IMG/VR virus record: IMGVR_UViG_3300020394_000098
Coordinates: 1 to 28,427 of that record
DNA length: 28,427 nucleotides
Origin: a virus
Reading direction: 5' to 3' (one strand)
Numbering within the stretch: the stretch's first letter is position 1; the number at the start of each line of letters is the position of its first letter. A program made the position numbers and the translations under genes. This document shows, in pieces, positions 6,750 through 12,708 of this stretch. The notes under the pieces are model-generated. The model was given only the letters and a program-made list of their open reading frames with translations. It was not told the origin of the DNA and ran no database searches.

Positions 6750-6801
6750 CCTTGCAAACCTATAAAAAATTAATAGGTACATGTTTAGATGTAGTGCAAG
6801 G
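6750..6801. repeat. Nested inverted repeats enclosing a phage promoter
   Basis: Outer arms CCTTGCA (6750-6756) and TGCAAGG (6795-6801) are perfect 7-bp complements. Inner arms ACCTAT (6758-6763) and ATAGGT (6773-6778) are perfect 6-bp complements, and the inner right arm is the start of the phage promoter core. Position directly after terL matches the right end of T7-like genomes, where a late promoter is linked to concatemer processing. Confidence 0.6.
6774..6789 (+). promoter_or_regulatory. Phage RNA polymerase promoter, copy 1 (after terL)
   Basis: Core TAGGTACATGTTTAGA. It matches the copy at 7708 in 15 of 16 bases and the copy at 19054 in 14 of 16. All three are in short spacers on the + strand at module boundaries, and the length and AT-rich 5' flank suit a single-subunit phage polymerase. 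This copy is placed like the T7 phi-OR promoter at the genome end. Confidence 0.7.
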
Positions 6802-6936: not shown

Positions 6937-7098
6937 ATGACAACACTATTACTACTACTACTATGTCTTATAGCAGCAGCTACACATTTCAGACCTGATC
7001 TACTCTATAAGGTAAGAACTACATATCTTAGACCGGAGATCAGTATCTTTGAGTTGATCATATTGGTAATCATAGGATTAATATTGGTGACATGGTAA
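6937..7098 (+). CDS. Small membrane protein with two hydrophobic segments
   Basis: 53 residues: a leucine-rich hydrophobic start (MTTLLLLLCLIAAA), a basic loop (17-32) and a C-terminal TM helix (about 36-52). The stop overlaps the ATG of the HExxHH gene, so the two are coupled. No family recognised. The ribosome site is weak (AAAGG about 8 bases upstream). Could be a small anchor for its neighbour; this is speculation. Confidence 0.5.
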   Translation: MTTLLLLLLCLIAAATHFRPDLLYKVRTTYLRPEISIFELIILVIIGLILVTW

Positions 7099-7451
7099 TG
7101 GCACCTAGATCCTTCGCCAAGTTTCCAGGAAGTGTGACTTTAGGGTTTACTAAGATCCAGTTGATCCTGGTAGATCCTGAGATCACTAAAGAGATCGGTG
7201 AGCAGCAAGGATGTTACATTGGATCACCACCTTACAAGATCTATCTAGATCGTGAGATCATATCTTCAGGTGGAGTAGATGCAGCTAATCTAGTTATCCA
7301 TGAGATCATGCATCACATATACTCCATATCAGAATGTGATGATAAAACCTCAGAAGAGATCCTGGTCAATACTATGGCCAATGGAATCACTGAGTTGATC
7401 TACAGATCTGAACTATCAGCCTGGTTACGACAACAACCAAATATTTTATAA
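7098..7451 (+). CDS. HExxHH protein, putative minimal zinc metallopeptidase
   Basis: 117 residues. The helix VIHEIMHHIYSI (about residues 70-81) contains HExxH, the zinc-binding and catalytic signature of zincins. A downstream Glu-rich helix (SEEILVNTMANGITEL) could supply the third ligand. Small HExxH proteins of this layout occur in many phages with unknown targets; ImmA/IrrE-type relatives cleave or relieve repressors. I start at ATG 7098, which overlaps the previous stop, rather than the in-frame ATG at 7092. The gene sits between terL and the early region, an unusual place for a structural protein. Peptidase activity is inferred from the motif alone. Confidence 0.6.
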   Translation: MAPRSFAKFPGSVTLGFTKIQLILVDPEITKEIGEQQGCYIGSPPYKIYLDREIISSGGVDAANLVIHEIMHHIYSISECDDKTSEEILVNTMANGITELIYRSELSAWLRQQPNIL

Positions 7452-7754
7452 AAAAATATGAGAGGGTTATCGTATAGGCTGCGGCCAAGTTACCCCATTT
7501 GGATCTGATAGGGGTGGGGTGGGTTCATCTTGTCACTGCCTGGTGACATAAAAAGTCTACAGGCCAATGTTTCTGCGGCCTACAGAGGGATATCATATCT
7601 CCGGATCAGGCTATATTAGCATTTGCTTATGAAGATTTGATGATTTCGGCTTGTCTTTCTACCGGGGTGTTTCTGTTTTTTTCGAGATATATCAATCATT
7701 TAGTAATTAGGTACATGTTAAGACACACAAAGCATTTACACAGGTGGAGTGAAT
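7452..7754. other. 303-base noncoding region with serial hairpins and G-runs
   Basis: No convincing gene. It holds ACCCC (7492-7496)/GGGGT (7511-7515), with GGGG-T-GGGG-T-GGG at 7511-7523, which is striking in such AT-rich DNA. Next come a perfect 6-bp stem TGTCAC/GTGACA (7531-7548) and TCTACAGGCC/GGCCTACAGA (7556-7586), which has a 2x2 internal mismatch. A short GATAT/ATATC palindrome lies at about 7590, followed by a T-rich tract (7670-7682) and then a phage promoter. Candidate roles are terminal repeat or packaging site, a structured RNA, or the left genome end. Confidence 0.5.
7708..7723 (+). promoter_or_regulatory. Phage RNA polymerase promoter, copy 2 (early genes)
   Basis: Core TAGGTACATGTTAAGA, one base different from copy 1. 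It lies about 30 bases upstream of the ATG at 7755 and would drive the small-gene block 7755-8480, which is closed by a strong terminator at 8500-8554. Confidence 0.7.
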
Positions 7755-8105
7755 ATGAGTACAAAAGATAAACAATGGATCATAGATGATACAAATGGTG
7801 ATCATAAGATCGTACAGATAGATCAGTATGGTGATCGTGTAGATCACATAAAGAGGCCGGATCAACTGGAGTTGGATCTTAAAGAGATCTGCGAGATCAG
7901 GTACAAACCAACCAACTACAAACTATTCGAGATCACTGGGATCAATAGAGCCGAGGCAGTACATAATGCCAAACTCATGATCTGTAGTCTCAAATCAGAC
8001 TGGGATGATCTAGAGCCTAGTCAGAAAACTCAGCCATACATGATTAGGCTGATGGATATGTTGAAGGACTGGGAACACATAGATTTCCAGGTGGTGGATG
8101 TATGA
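7755..8105 (+). CDS. Early protein of unknown function
   Basis: 116 residues, charged, mixed alpha/beta, no signal or TM segment and no motif I recognise. The in-frame GTG at 7749 is less likely than ATG 7755, which has AGGTGGAG at good distance. First gene after phage promoter 2. The stop overlaps the next ATG (ATGA). The residues HNAKLMICSLK and YMIRLMDMLKDW suggest amphipathic helices, perhaps protein binding. Early phage proteins of this size often redirect host functions, but nothing here shows which. Confidence 0.6.
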   Translation: MSTKDKQWIIDDTNGDHKIVQIDQYGDRVDHIKRPDQLELDLKEICEIRYKPTNYKLFEITGINRAEAVHNAKLMICSLKSDWDDLEPSQKTQPYMIRLMDMLKDWEHIDFQVVDV

Positions 8106-8254
8106 CTAAACTCAATGAAGATGCAGTGGCTAAGATCAATGCAGAGATAGCTAGGTTGAAACATAAGATCAATATCGAGTTCAACCAAAGTAAAATGAAA
8201 GAACTAACCAGGGAGAGAGATGGCTTACAAAAACATACAAGATCGAATAGATAA
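8102..8254 (+). CDS. Small coiled-coil early protein
   Basis: 50 residues, mostly a single charged helix with heptad-like spacing (KINAEIARLKHKINIEF). It overlaps the previous stop by four bases and the next gene by 35. Overlap of that length and the absence of a clear ribosome site make it less certain than its neighbours, but the ATGA junction supports translational coupling. No function assigned. Confidence 0.45.
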   Translation: MTKLNEDAVAKINAEIARLKHKINIEFNQSKMKELTRERDGLQKHTRSNR

Positions 8255-8480
8255 CAATAGTGTTACTGATCTAGAAATGGATCGTACTGCTATGTGTGAG
8301 TTTCTTAAAAATGAGCTAACCAGGGATGAGCTGGAACACTTCAAAGATCTATGTGAGAAACTCATTGATCATAAATTGCTGAAACTGGAGACTGCATTTT
8401 GGCTGATCTTATTGTGGAAAGAGATCTATGCCAGGGATCATAAGATCCTGTATAAAGAACCTGATCAGACTAAAGATTAA
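8220..8480 (+). CDS. Early protein of unknown function
   Basis: 86 residues, acidic and helical. GGGAG precedes the ATG. The segment LKLETAFWLILLWKEIY (about 54-70) is amphipathic to hydrophobic, but its charged residues make a true TM helix doubtful. No helix-turn-helix could be made out, so it is not an obvious repressor. Last gene of the block; the transcript would end at the terminator beginning 20 bases after its stop. Confidence 0.6.
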   Translation: MAYKNIQDRIDNNSVTDLEMDRTAMCEFLKNELTRDELEHFKDLCEKLIDHKLLKLETAFWLILLWKEIYARDHKILYKEPDQTKD

Positions 8481-8499
8481 CTTTTCCTCATAAAAGTTG

Positions 8500-8554
8500 G
8501 CCGGTACATATCACTAAACTCCACAAAATAATGGGTATGTATCGGCTTTTTTTT
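8500..8554 (+). terminator. Strong Rho-independent terminator
   Basis: Arms GCCGGTACATA (8500-8510) and TATGTATCGGC (8536-8546) form an 11-bp stem with one G-U pair. It is extendable by two pairs (8511-8512 with 8534-8535) and followed at once by eight T (8547-8554). It separates the early block driven by phage promoter 2 from the host-type promoter at 8567. Confidence 0.8.
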
Positions 8555-8565
8555 GATCATCAAGG

Positions 8566-8580
8566 GTTTACAGGATAAAC
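8566..8580. promoter_or_regulatory. Operator-like dyad over the -35 element
   Basis: GTTTA-cagga-TAAAC, a perfect 5-bp dyad covering the -35 hexamer of the promoter at 8567. The same half-site recurs in the second dyad at 8595-8606, which suggests a dimeric regulator binding twice. The binding protein is unknown. Confidence 0.45.
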
Positions 8581-8595
8581 ACCGGTAGCTATACT
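8567..8595 (+). promoter_or_regulatory. Host sigma70-type promoter for the integrase/RNAP block
   Basis: TTTACA (8567-8572), a spacer of exactly 17 bases, then TATACT (8590-8595). This is a near-consensus vegetative promoter, placed just after a terminator and ahead of two small genes, integrase and the phage RNA polymerase. It fits as the first promoter used on infection, before phage polymerase exists. Confidence 0.7.
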
Positions 8596-8606
8596 GTTTG
8601 TAAACA
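8595..8606. promoter_or_regulatory. Operator-like dyad after the -10 element
   Basis: TGTTT-GT-AAACA, a 12-base dyad with 5-bp arms, immediately after and touching the -10 hexamer, over the expected transcription start. It shares the GTTT/AAAC half-site with the dyad at 8566-8580. Confidence 0.45.
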
Positions 8607-8617
8607 CAGGAGTAACA

Positions 8618-8773
8618 ATGTACGAACTTTATTACACACATCCATCTGATCCAACTAAAGATATTTGTGAAGATGGATTTAAAACAAAAGAACAGGCTTA
8701 TAATTGGATCATGAGCCTAATACCTAATAAAGATGCAGATTGTGTCCACATCAAAAGGAGTAACAATGGCTAA
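8618..8773 (+). CDS. Small early protein of unknown function
   Basis: 51 residues, first gene after the host-type promoter. ACAGGAG sits at good distance from the ATG. Composition is soluble and acidic; a helix around residues 24-33 (TKEQAYNWIM) resembles a small domain of the type that reads TY-P-SKEEA-NW, but no function follows. Its stop lies inside the next gene's start region (8-base overlap). As the first host-transcribed gene it is a candidate regulator or takeover protein; no DNA-binding motif is evident. Confidence 0.6.
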   Translation: MYELYYTHPSDPTKDICEDGFKTKEQAYNWIMSLIPNKDADCVHIKRSNNG

Positions 8774-8969
8774 ATTATTATCATTACAATCAATTATAGA
8801 AATGCGAGATTCTCTACAGATCCAAGTAGATAAGTATTCTAAATATGATCGGTCATACGATCTTCTACAATACATCTCAGATCGTAAAATTCTCAAATTT
8901 CTAAATCAAAGAATTAACAGTATGTCCAGCAGTCGGACTGTTAATGCAGATGATTCTGCAGCAAAGTAA
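8766..8969 (+). CDS. Small early protein of unknown function
   Basis: 67 residues. ATG 8766 chosen because AAAGGAG stands at ideal spacing, rather than the in-frame ATG at 8733. Basic, helical (LLSLQSIIEMRDSLQIQV..., KILKFLNQRINSM), with a Ser/Asp-rich tail. Not a recognised helix-turn-helix, though its size and basic charge would allow an excisionase- or repressor-like role beside the integrase. Assignment open. Confidence 0.6.
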   Translation: MAKLLSLQSIIEMRDSLQIQVDKYSKYDRSYDLLQYISDRKILKFLNQRINSMSSSRTVNADDSAAK

Positions 8970-8975
8970 CTGGAC

Positions 8976-8993
8976 TGAGATCAATAGATCTCA
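8976..8993. promoter_or_regulatory. Perfect dyad upstream of integrase
   Basis: TGAGATC-AATA-GATCTCA, a 7-bp perfect inverted repeat with a 4-base centre, in the spacer between the small early gene and integrase. There is no T-run, so it is not a standard terminator. It could be an integrase arm, excisionase or repressor site. Confidence 0.45.
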
Positions 8994-9036
8994 TAGTGAC
9001 TGCACTAACAATGTAAATATTATATTGTGTAATCTT

Positions 9037-9075
9037 GTGTGTAGGCTATGGGTTTCCGGATCCATAGCCGCACAC
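9037..9075. other. Long hairpin in the integrase leader (attenuator or attP candidate)
   Basis: GTGTG (9037-9041) pairs with CACAC (9071-9075) and GGCTATGG (9044-9051) pairs perfectly with CCATAGCC (9062-9069), around a 10-base loop. No T-tract follows. The integrase ribosome site (CCGGAG) begins about 8 bases later. It could control integrase translation or be part of the attachment site; no tRNA 3' end is recognisable here. Confidence 0.5.
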
Positions 9076-9097
9076 CAAAACCAACCGGAGTAACACC

Positions 9098-10135
9098 ATG
9101 TCAGTAAGAAAAAGAAATAAAGGTTATCAGATTGATATAAGTCATGCTGGTAAGAGATATAGATTCAATATTAATGGTGATATGCATGATGCATTGATCA
9201 CCGAGCAGCAATGTAAAAAAGAACTGGATCAGGGAAGATCCATAGATAAATTTATGAAGGTTCCTGATCATACAGTTGGATACATATTCGACAAGATCAA
9301 AGATGATTACAAAAGTACCAGGGAACTCAATAAGGCCTGTAATGTGATCAGAGATATTGGATCTGATCTAAACATATCTGATCTAGATCAAGATCGTATT
9401 GAGGATATGACCAGGCTATGGAGATCAAGCATGAATAATTCAAATGCTACGATCAACAGGAAACTTTCAGTGATCAGTAAGATCATTTCATTTGCACATA
9501 AAAAACAATACATCAAGTACAAACCACAGATCACCTGGCATAAAGAAGGTGTAGGTAGACTTAGATATTTAGTAGGTGATGAAGAGTATAATCTTTGTAA
9601 GATCCTAAGATCATGCGGCCACAATCAAATGGCTGATATGATCATAGTTGCATGTGATACTGGCCTCAGATTCTCAGAGTTGATCAGAATAGATCGTGAT
9701 CTTGATCTCAAAGATGGATATGGATGTTACAGAACAGATTGCAGCTACTTAACATGTCACTCATCAAAAAATGATACGACCAGGACAATACCATTGACAC
9801 ACAGATCTTACATGATCTTGAAATTACATGGAAAGAAACCATTTGCTAGTATGACTGAGACCAGGAAAAACAGGGAATGGAATCTTGCAAAAGAGATGAT
9901 GGGATTGTCTGATGATCGACAATTCACTTTCCATTGCACCAGGCATACATGTGCAAGTAGGTTAGTACAAAATGGCATACCGCTACAGGTAGTACAAAAA
10001 TGGCTAGGCCATAAGACATTGAATATGACATTGAGATATTCACATTTAGACACCAGGAATTTTATTGAAGGTAAAGAGGTACTAGAACGACAAGGTGACA
10101 ACACCTATAAAAGTGGGTTAGTATCTATACAATAA
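9098..10135 (+). CDS. int: Tyrosine-family site-specific integrase
   Basis: 345 residues. N-terminal SAM-like core-binding region at about 60-150, catalytic domain from about 160. The catalytic set is visible: Arg191 in TGLRFSEL, His279 and Arg282 in HCTRH, His305 in GHK, and nucleophile Tyr314 in LRYSHL. It would recombine attP with a host attB, in pelagiphages usually inside a tRNA gene. The gene is intact. Position just upstream of the phage RNA polymerase is the signature of integrase-carrying pelagiphage podoviruses. CGGAG precedes the ATG. Rich in GATC (about 26) and CCWGG (7) by hand count. Confidence 0.95.
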   Translation: MSVRKRNKGYQIDISHAGKRYRFNINGDMHDALITEQQCKKELDQGRSIDKFMKVPDHTVGYIFDKIKDDYKSTRELNKACNVIRDIGSDLNISDLDQDRIEDMTRLWRSSMNNSNATINRKLSVISKIISFAHKKQYIKYKPQITWHKEGVGRLRYLVGDEEYNLCKILRSCGHNQMADMIIVACDTGLRFSELIRIDRDLDLKDGYGCYRTDCSYLTCHSSKNDTTRTIPLTHRSYMILKLHGKKPFASMTETRKNREWNLAKEMMGLSDDRQFTFHCTRHTCASRLVQNGIPLQVVQKWLGHKTLNMTLRYSHLDTRNFIEGKEVLERQGDNTYKSGLVSIQ

Positions 10136-10248
10136 AATATAAAATGGTGGTGGTGTGTACTGTAGGCTTAAAATCATAAACAATACCTATCTTAAAACGA
10201 GGCTACTAGCTATGCACCATCCACTTAATTACAGATCGAGGTGTTTGT

Positions 10249-12708
10249 ATGGCGACAACAGAGAGTGACATTGATCAATTATTCAAAAAGCAATTAGAAC
10301 TAGAAGAGAGAATGATCCACAAAGGTTTGGATCGGTACCACAAAACAACCAACAAATCCAAAGAATCAGGTAACGAGAGCCTTACTGTTTATGGTAAGAA
10401 ATTACTTAAAACAAGTATTGATAAATTCGAGGCCGCTATTGATAAAGAGTTCAAACAAAATTTATCTACTAGAGGTGCAACACCATTTGCCAGGAAGTTA
10501 TGTGAGGATATTGATACCAGGACACTAGCAGTCATAGCAACTAAGAAGATCATAGATGGGATATCATTCAAAAGAAAACGAACAGGCCTGGTCATCAAGT
10601 TAGGCGGCAAGGTTGAAGATGAGGCATATTTTAGAGCCTACGAGCAGTTCAATAAAACACTTTTCAAAACAGTAGATAAAGATCTAAACAGTAGATCTAA
10701 TAACTATGAATACAGAAGGTACAAACAATTAAAACAATCACAACGATCAGGATTCACCTGGAATCATTGGACAGTAAATGATAAGACACATGTCGGATCT
10801 ACATTGTTAGAGTTGTTTATATTGTCTACTGGTTTTTGTAGATTAGAAAAAGTCAATGACAATAAAGTGAGGCATAATTTCAGACAGGATACATATGTAA
10901 CACCGACTGATAAGTTATTAGAATGGATTGATAAATGTAACGAGTTTAACGAGTACCTGGATCCGGAATATTTACCGACAGTGATCATACCTAGGCCATG
11001 GAAAAAAGGAATGTCGCAAGGTGCTGGGTACATACATGAAAGGATCAGGCCGATCATGTTAGTTACTGGCCATAACATTACATCACATAGAAACTATCTC
11101 AAAGAATTAGAACTAGCTGATATGCCTGGTGTTATTGATGGGATCAATGCGGTACAAAACACCATGTATAAAATTAATAAGGATGTGTATTGGACTGCAG
11201 AGGCTATTTACCGAGATGATAAATTTAACCAGGGATCTCCAATAGTCACTTCAGCACACATGGATCTACCCAATAAACCACATGATATTGATACAAATCC
11301 TAAAGCATTGAGTAAATGGAAAGCAGAGGCTACGATTATACATACACTTAATGCAAAACTTAGATCCAAAAGATTACAGACTGCAAAAATTTTACATGTA
11401 GCTAAAGAATATATGGACTATGATCAGATAGGATTCCCATGTAATTTAGATTTTAGATCCAGGTTGTATTATGTACCGGCATTTTTGAATCCACAGGGAA
11501 ATGATCTTGCAAAATCTCTATTAAGATTTGCTGAAAAGAAACCTATAGGATCAGAAGGTTACAAATGGCTATGCATACACATAGCAAATTGTTATGGATA
11601 CGATAAGGTTAGTCTAGATGATCGTATAAAATGGGTTGAAGATAATCATGATATGATCCTGGAATCTGCTCATGATCCGATCAATGGTGATAGAACTTGG
11701 ATGAAAGCAGATAAACCATTTCAATTCCTGGCCGCAAGTATCGAATACAATAGAGTAAAACGATATGGCCTGGAATATGAATCAGATCTACCGATCCATA
11801 TTGATGGATCATGTAATGGCTTACAACATTTCAGTGCCATGCTGCGAGATCAGGAAGGCGGCATAGCTACCAACCTAACAGATACAGAAACACCGGAAGA
11901 TATTTATCAGATCGTATGCGATAAAGTTATTGATAAATTGAAACAGAGTGATGATCCATTAGCAAAACTTTGGTTAGCATTTGGTATAGATCGTAAGGCC
12001 ACAAAGAGATCAGTGATGGTGTTACCATATGGCGGCACTAGATATTCATCTGTAGAATTTATTGATGAATACTTAGCAGATCGTATAGAGAAGGGAGATC
12101 ATAATCCATTCGATAATCGTGGTGAGGCCTGTAAATTTTTAGGTTACATGATCTATGATTCAATAGGTGATACTGTGAGTAAAGCGAGAGAGGCAATGGC
12201 CTGGTTACAAAAGATTGCAAAGATGGTAGCCAAGTTAAATTCTGCAGTCGAATGGGAAACACCGCTAGGCTTTCCGATCAGACAAGCATATTACGATACG
12301 ACTGATCTTGTTGTCAGAACTAAAATGATGGGTAGGATCAGAGTTAGATCAACCACAGATAAGATCAATAAAAGAAAACAAGCAAATGGTATCAGTGCAA
12401 ACTTGATCCATAGCCTGGATGCTACATGTTTATATCTATCAATAGATCATGCGAGAGAGAAAGGTGTTACGAGTTTTTCAATGGTGCATGATAGCTATGG
12501 TACTCATGCATGTGATGTAGCGGCCATGGGTGAATCGACTAGAGCCGCATTTATAGAACTTTATGGTAGTAATGATCCACTTGAAATGTTGAGAGATCAA
12601 CTGATCAAGCTGCTACCTGAGAAGGATCATAAAAAAATACCGGATCTACCGAGCAAAGGAGATTTAGATCTGAACAATCTTAAAAAAGCTAAATACTTTT
12701 TCTGCTAA
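10249..12708 (+). CDS. T7-like single-subunit DNA-directed RNA polymerase
   Basis: 819 residues (T7 gp1: 883). Transcribes phage middle and late genes from dedicated promoters. Seen: DFRSRLYYVP before the palm, motif A with catalytic Asp519 in HIDGSCNGLQHF, motif B with Lys586 in ATKRSVMVLPYGG, and motif C with Asp748 in VHDSYGTHA. The C-terminus ends in KYFFC, like the T7 -FAFA foot in being aromatic. The motif A to B distance is about 27 residues shorter than in T7. GAGGTG precedes the ATG. A 113-base spacer separates it from integrase, with no phage promoter, consistent with transcription by host polymerase from 8567. Confidence 0.97.
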   Translation: MATTESDIDQLFKKQLELEERMIHKGLDRYHKTTNKSKESGNESLTVYGKKLLKTSIDKFEAAIDKEFKQNLSTRGATPFARKLCEDIDTRTLAVIATKKIIDGISFKRKRTGLVIKLGGKVEDEAYFRAYEQFNKTLFKTVDKDLNSRSNNYEYRRYKQLKQSQRSGFTWNHWTVNDKTHVGSTLLELFILSTGFCRLEKVNDNKVRHNFRQDTYVTPTDKLLEWIDKCNEFNEYLDPEYLPTVIIPRPWKKGMSQGAGYIHERIRPIMLVTGHNITSHRNYLKELELADMPGVIDGINAVQNTMYKINKDVYWTAEAIYRDDKFNQGSPIVTSAHMDLPNKPHDIDTNPKALSKWKAEATIIHTLNAKLRSKRLQTAKILHVAKEYMDYDQIGFPCNLDFRSRLYYVPAFLNPQGNDLAKSLLRFAEKKPIGSEGYKWLCIHIANCYGYDKVSLDDRIKWVEDNHDMILESAHDPINGDRTWMKADKPFQFLAASIEYNRVKRYGLEYESDLPIHIDGSCNGLQHFSAMLRDQEGGIATNLTDTETPEDIYQIVCDKVIDKLKQSDDPLAKLWLAFGIDRKATKRSVMVLPYGGTRYSSVEFIDEYLADRIEKGDHNPFDNRGEACKFLGYMIYDSIGDTVSKAREAMAWLQKIAKMVAKLNSAVEWETPLGFPIRQAYYDTTDLVVRTKMMGRIRVRSTTDKINKRKQANGISANLIHSLDATCLYLSIDHAREKGVTSFSMVHDSYGTHACDVAAMGESTRAAFIELYGSNDPLEMLRDQLIKLLPEKDHKKIPDLPSKGDLDLNNLKKAKYFFC

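Follow-up and report, generated by a model that had tools for sequence, protein, structure and literature searches.

A conserved operator-like dyad over the -35 of an early host-type promoter in a T7-like phage of probable temperate ancestry

The window analysed in this work is a whole virus record of 28,427 bases (IMGVR_UViG_3300020394_000098; coordinates count from its base 1) with a G+C content of 35%. The record is linear and, as it measures 28 kb and the relatives about 40 kb, part of the genome is missing from it. On the + strand the small genes 7749, 8102 and 8220 are followed by a terminator, a promoter, genes 8618 and 8766, the gene of a tyrosine integrase (9098-10135, 345 aa, intact frame; Pfam PF00589, 1.3e-20) and, adjoining the latter, that of a T7-type single-subunit RNA polymerase (10249-12708; Pfam PF00940, 1.6e-113). 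The T7-type polymerase and the gene order are features of Votkovvirus-like Autographiviridae, and the nearest named relatives by polymerase identity are all Votkovvirus (S28-C10 55.9%, HTVC119P 53.8%, HTVC200P 53.2%). Metagenomic contigs L004/L018 (related loci carry the prefix L) are closer, with 80% identity in the polymerase and 58% in the integrase. A nucleotide search of GenBank phages for relatives yielded no match, an Rfam search returned no family at gathering scores, and a prophage search of genome contigs by integrase gave 62 pattern-matching stretches, none of which was confirmed. At the left end of the window there is a fatty acid desaturase gene, an unusual cargo (464-1243; Pfam PF00487, 2.6e-13), which a second ORF (6-494) resembles by eye.

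The predicted terminator occupies 8500-8554 on the + strand. Its stem is formed by GCCGGTACATATC (8500-8512) and GGTATGTATCGGC (8534-8546), 13 pairs including G-U, which enclose a long loop and are followed by eight T (8547-8554). The folding energy is -20.5 kcal/mol (z -5.3) and none of 200 shuffled sequences folded equally well; the 13-bp terminator with eight T named in the first-pass annotation is thus present, far beyond chance. A mechanical terminator scan had passed over it because the loop is longer than 8 nt. A terminator-like hairpin occupies the equivalent place in every one of the nine loci folded (z -4.3 to -5.7), and five or more T in a row, ending at a fixed distance before the dyad called O1 below, are invariant in ten of ten loci. 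Directly upstream of the terminator, beginning at the 8220 stop codon, is a small + strand hairpin (8477-8500; core AACTTTT-CCTCAT-AAAAGTT, 8479-8498) with CCTC in its loop. Exactly one CCTC occurs in the 190 nt upstream of O1 in each of the ten loci, right in front of the terminator, and in six of them a stem of at least 6 bp surrounds it, compared with 0-17% of the CCTC words in the same loci. ACTCC in the terminator loop was considered as an anti-Shine-Dalgarno seed and set aside as a curiosity; it is present in the window, L018-L020, L001 and L054 and missing from L022, L023, L050 and L053.

Candidate promoters of the phage RNA polymerase, TTARGTRCATGTTWAGA, are located at 6773, 7707 and 19053, and for this reason the terminator seems to be the end of the 7707 unit, which it would close ahead of the host-type promoter. 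With up to three mismatches this word has five matches in the window against 1.1 expected, the two additional ones being weaker. Similar words stand after the terminase or before early genes in several relatives. The possibility that the TTTACA at 8567 belongs to a promoter of the phage polymerase was ruled out, as the candidate phage promoters differ from it in sequence.

Downstream of the terminator the + strand carries a predicted sigma-70-type promoter, TTTACA (8567-8572) and TATACT (8590-8595) separated by 17 bp, with 10 of 12 hexamer positions matching. The TTTACA-17-TATACT that had been claimed is there (8567-8595), although the 10/12 match would be unconvincing without the relatives: promoter-like sites in the interval 7000-10000 are rarer than in shuffled sequence (6 against 12.8 expected) and not enriched. 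The comparison with related loci strengthens the assignment. The -35 and -10 hexamers are conserved within the 16-18 bp spacing of sigma-70 promoters, and TANNNT follows TTTACA after 17-18 bp in eight of the eight main loci, where about 0.04-0.12 would be expected per locus. Two dyads had been reported, one over the -35 and one over the start, and both exist in the window (GTTTA-N5-TAAAC at 8566-8580 and TGTTT-N2-AAACA at 8595-8606). Taken alone they are borderline, since 8552-8617 contains three five-base dyads where 0.6 would be expected (P about 0.06); once the relatives are counted, the first dyad is far beyond chance.

In its full extent the first dyad is a 19-bp operator candidate, O1 (GGGTTTACAGGATAAACAC, 8564-8582, unstranded), identified by its conservation over the -35. 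Ten loci were anchored on it (the window, L018, L019, L020, L022, L023, L050, L053, L001 and L054); L021 (covering the L022 stretch), L129/L141 (found later; they differ from L053 by one base near O1), L049/L139 (equal in length to L001 and treated as one record with it) and re-fetched loci of the same contigs had been left out before counting. The consensus is GKGTTTACA-N4-AAACAC. In the eight closest loci the GTTTACA and AAACAC columns reach 2.0 bits and the N4 centre 0.09-0.70 bits; these eight loci form about five close groups (L018-L020 and L022-L023 among them), so that the independent observations are nearer five and the conservation of O1 partly reflects descent. L001 and L054 do not have TTTACA (they read TTTTAG and TTTTAT, with TATGAA at the -10 place), and the 19-bp symmetry is kept in them as GTGTTT-N7-ATACAC. 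The outer bases covary, L001 having TTGGTGT-N11-ACACCAA (G..C) and L054 AGTGT-N11-ACACT (A..T). A conserved dyad thus overlaps the promoter elements, and its half-sites are fixed while the -10 varies, which is the opposite of the pattern that would speak against an operator.

There is one exact copy of O1 in the window. T6-gap-O1 was matched by 12 IMG/VR records: nine from this phage group, one unrelated contig (L144) and two representing one G+C-rich sequence. In this unrelated G+C-rich sequence (L145:931, L149:57) a T run precedes GTGTTTACAGGATAAACAC, whose four central bases are identical to those in the window. O1, in either of its two forms, is present in each of the 11 loci where the 8220 family was found, an association confounded by descent. 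A loose search for O1 in the HTVC119P-type group, where the 8220 gene was not found, gave nothing convincing. No description of O1 was found in the literature searched, which lay largely outside subscription journals.

The first gene behind the promoter (8618-8773, + strand, 51 aa; from the ORF list and comparison with relatives) occupies a position in which relatives have different genes, 83 aa in L004 (2291-2542), another one in L019/L020 and 230 aa in L029 (3149-3841), as if this slot were a cargo-gene site. It is followed by a small conserved gene of 67 aa (8766-8969, + strand), which comparison with Pfam and the relatives placed in no known family. A highly conserved non-coding block (8975-9076, unstranded) comes next, consisting of the near-dyad AATGTAA-ATA-TTATATT, then TTGTGTAATCTTGTGTGTA, and a hairpin at 9036-9076. 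From 8967 onwards the sequence aligns closely with L005 and L020 (both to 9072), L022 (to 9070) and L018 (to 9054). The part 8975-9041 is more conserved than the neighbouring proteins, and its TCTTGTGTGT recurs antisense in the tRNA-Leu gene of L005, L018, L020, L022 and L027. The hairpin is strong (z -3.3); at its place the relatives have, by eye, a hairpin of different sequence. No long T run follows it or the hairpin in the integrase-polymerase gap. Judged from strand and spacing, one polycistronic transcript would extend from the promoter to the polymerase gene. Downstream of the block hairpin the relatives continue with a MarR-like gene and tRNA-Leu, the window directly with the integrase.

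A complete antisense tRNA-Leu(UAA) just before the integrase was found in 20 of the 33 loci examined (e.g. L001-L006), several of the 20 being near-duplicates, and all 20 have a MarR-like gene just before the integrase as well (HMM from nine relatives, E 2e-50 or better). Neither was found in the window: the best match of the MarR HMM has E 14, and no tRNA gene was detected in the 28.4 kb. In the same 20 loci (L001-L006, L027, L029, L031, L032, L034, L036, L039, L040, L044, L045, L047, L048, L053 and L054) the gap between integrase and polymerase repeats 11-12 bases of the tRNA-Leu(UAA) anticodon arm, around GACTTAAAATC, and L067 has a 10-base version. GACTTAAAATC is the anticodon-loop word of this tRNA, and the same gap in the window contains GGCTTAAAATC (10165-10175, + strand), one base off it and an attP-core candidate. 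The combination of tRNA and gap core in these marine T7-like relatives looks like tRNA-dependent lysogeny with the gap as candidate attP; the window has the core-like word and no tRNA. The L038/L060 and L043 lineage has an integrase, whose frame continues into the polymerase frame, and neither MarR-like gene nor tRNA in the approximately 2.3 kb or 4.5 kb upstream.

The second dyad, TGTTTGTAAACA (8595-8606, unstranded), was found by the five-base dyad scan at the likely transcription start. The relatives examined do not have it. It is peculiar to the window phage, its half-sites are not conserved, and the description of the two dyads as paired operators fails on this point. At its place L018, L019, L020, L022, L023 and L050 carry another dyad, O2 (AGTGTA-N5-TRCAYT; a fraction of at most 0.004 of 500 shuffles was as good), and L053 a weaker form (0.048 of shuffles as good). 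O2 after O1 is therefore strong in six of the ten loci, or seven if L053 is counted; it was not found there in the window, L001 or L054, the last two of which do have the MarR-like gene. The 100-nt stretch scored for the window was placed 2 bases off, with no material effect. The same form stands upstream of the MarR-like gene in L018, L005, L020 and L022 (at most 0.002 of shuffles as good), where, as in all these scores, the P values are partly circular because the consensus was derived from the same sites. Upstream of the MarR-like gene it was not convincing in 13 of the 17 loci scored, L034 being too short to score; of 18 loci scored upstream of the polymerase, the window included, only L031 and L047 gave good values. 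O2 as a universal MarR operator is only partly borne out by these counts (4/17 loci before the MarR-like gene), and the proposal is confined to the closest relatives, in which it is a probable MarR operator.

A protein that could bind O1 was sought among the window proteins. The products of 8618, 8766 and 8220 had been put forward as candidate repressors, and none of them resembles a DNA-binding repressor: the 8618 and 8220 products are acidic (pI 5.5 and 5.2) and have no convincing family match, and the 8766 product is basic with no family match. The AlphaFold model of the 8220 family has four helices (mean pLDDT 78) and its best PDB match is no better than E 1.7; as an acidic protein with no significant PDB fold match, it is unsupported as the O1 binder. 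A screen of 18 window proteins, integrase and polymerase set aside, revealed no helix-turn-helix protein, and no cognate repressor was recognised among them. Part of the genome is missing from this 28-kb record, and a repressor gene elsewhere in the genome is therefore possible.

We propose that 8480-8617 serves a marine, Votkovvirus-like T7-type phage as its early control region. The intrinsic terminator would shield a host-RNA-polymerase promoter from upstream transcription, and the promoter would drive the variable small gene, the 8766 gene, the integrase and the phage RNA polymerase. As O1 lies over the -35, a dimer bound to it should exclude host RNA polymerase, and in this way the phage polymerase would be withheld. 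In temperate relatives O2, downstream of the -10, probably answers to the phage MarR-like repressor. The window phage appears to have lost the MarR-like gene, tRNA-Leu and O2 and to have kept the terminator, the promoter, O1, the integrase and the attP-like core; what is present, how far it is conserved and what is absent from the 28.4-kb record were observed directly. Promoter activity, repression, the nature of the binder and impaired lysogeny we infer from sequence. The most apt description of the region is a conserved early host promoter that bears an operator, in a T7-like phage of temperate ancestry, and we hold the account as a whole, with the loss of the MarR arm included, to be moderately probable. 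The earlier reading of the promoter as repressor-controlled and as feeding integrase and RNA polymerase is supported by the fixed half-sites of the first dyad, and the genes concerned all lie on the + strand. Its further suggestion, that this may be the lysogeny switch, stands in so far as the control region is related to one and is doubtful otherwise, the MarR-like gene, tRNA-Leu and O2 being missing; the switch is probably incomplete in the window phage.

How O1 is used allows several readings. A working switch, in which an unrecognised phage repressor on O1 (and the second dyad) shuts the integrase-polymerase operon in the prophage, would fit the conserved O1, the intact integrase and the retained attP-like core, but we regard it as unlikely, because the window lacks the MarR-like gene, tRNA-Leu and O2, the protein screen gave no helix-turn-helix candidate and the second dyad is not conserved. 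O1 could instead be bound by a host regulator, rather than a lysogeny repressor, so that early transcription of the phage would depend on the physiology of its host. Its persistence despite the loss of the MarR arm, its single exact copy in the window and the dissimilarity of the conserved phage proteins beside it, the acidic 8220 family among them, to known DNA-binding proteins point in this direction, whereas its restriction to the subclade with the 8220 gene does not, and we entertain the idea tentatively. With similar reserve one may picture a phage turning from temperate to virulent, with the MarR-like gene, O2 and the tRNA-Leu that tRNA-dependent lysogeny requires gone together, O1 as the older operator and the lytic gate set by a possibly host-encoded O1 binder.

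That O1 is itself a MarR operator and the window copy a relic is suggested by the half-sites of O1 and O2, which both start with GTG, and by L001 and L054, which have the MarR-like gene and O1 and no O2 after it. The dyads differ in length, however (GTGT-N11-ACAC and GTGY-N7-RCAC), and the conserved columns are undecayed in the window despite the gene loss, which makes this reading quite improbable. Finally, O1 overlaps the -35, and promoter-like sites and short dyads taken alone are at or near chance level, so it could be an extended promoter element with symmetry by chance. Against this, AAACAC is as fixed as the -35 although it falls within the spacer, for which sigma-70 has no sequence requirement, and two loci without TTTACA (L001, L054) keep the dyad; we consider a mere promoter element very improbable.

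T7-like phages that infect SAR11-type bacteria are very abundant, and it is still debated whether they are temperate and how the decision is taken. Under the preferred account, an operator-bearing promoter kept after loss of the MarR arm, the conserved operator over a promoter leading to the phage RNA polymerase would be a concrete DNA target in the search for the decision protein. A relative such as the window phage, with O1 and without the MarR arm, would separate the two controls and allow the supposed descent of virulent T7-like phages from temperate ones to be tested. In phage lambda a dimer-type dyad lies over the -35 of PR, the promoter that starts lytic expression. The window has such a dyad in the same position but, unlike lambda PR, a single site and no recognised repressor.

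In LUZ100 a host promoter is reported to drive a co-transcribed MarR-like gene and integrase, and the polymerase is proposed to be under MarR control (PMC10134795); in HTVC022P, MarR, polymerase and integrase are reported to be expressed early (PMC12753301). The window resembles this MarR-integrase module of LUZ100 (PMC10134795) and pelagiphages in having a host-type promoter before a tyrosine integrase and a single-subunit polymerase; tRNA-Leu and the MarR-like gene are shared by its relatives only, in which lysogeny control would be consistent with the LUZ100 proposal. It is unlike LUZ100 in having neither MarR-like gene nor tRNA-Leu, and in that O1 covers the -35 of the early promoter, the LUZ100 operator being proposed beside the polymerase promoter (PMC10134795). 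Control by MarR has been proposed for T7-like phages before; what is new here is O1, together with the joint loss of MarR, tRNA and O2. With tRNA-dependent lysogeny, described for actinobacteriophages (PMC10865867, mycobacteriophages), the relatives share the integrase, the anticodon-loop core and a complete phage-borne tRNA of that isotype, whereas the window keeps the core without the tRNA. Among Votkovvirus, HTVC119P and HTVC200P have the terminator but, unlike the window, no O1, and S28-C10, again unlike the window, keeps the dyad without TTTACA; with all three the window shares the order early genes, integrase, RNA polymerase, SSB and endonuclease, and a polymerase that is 53-56% identical.
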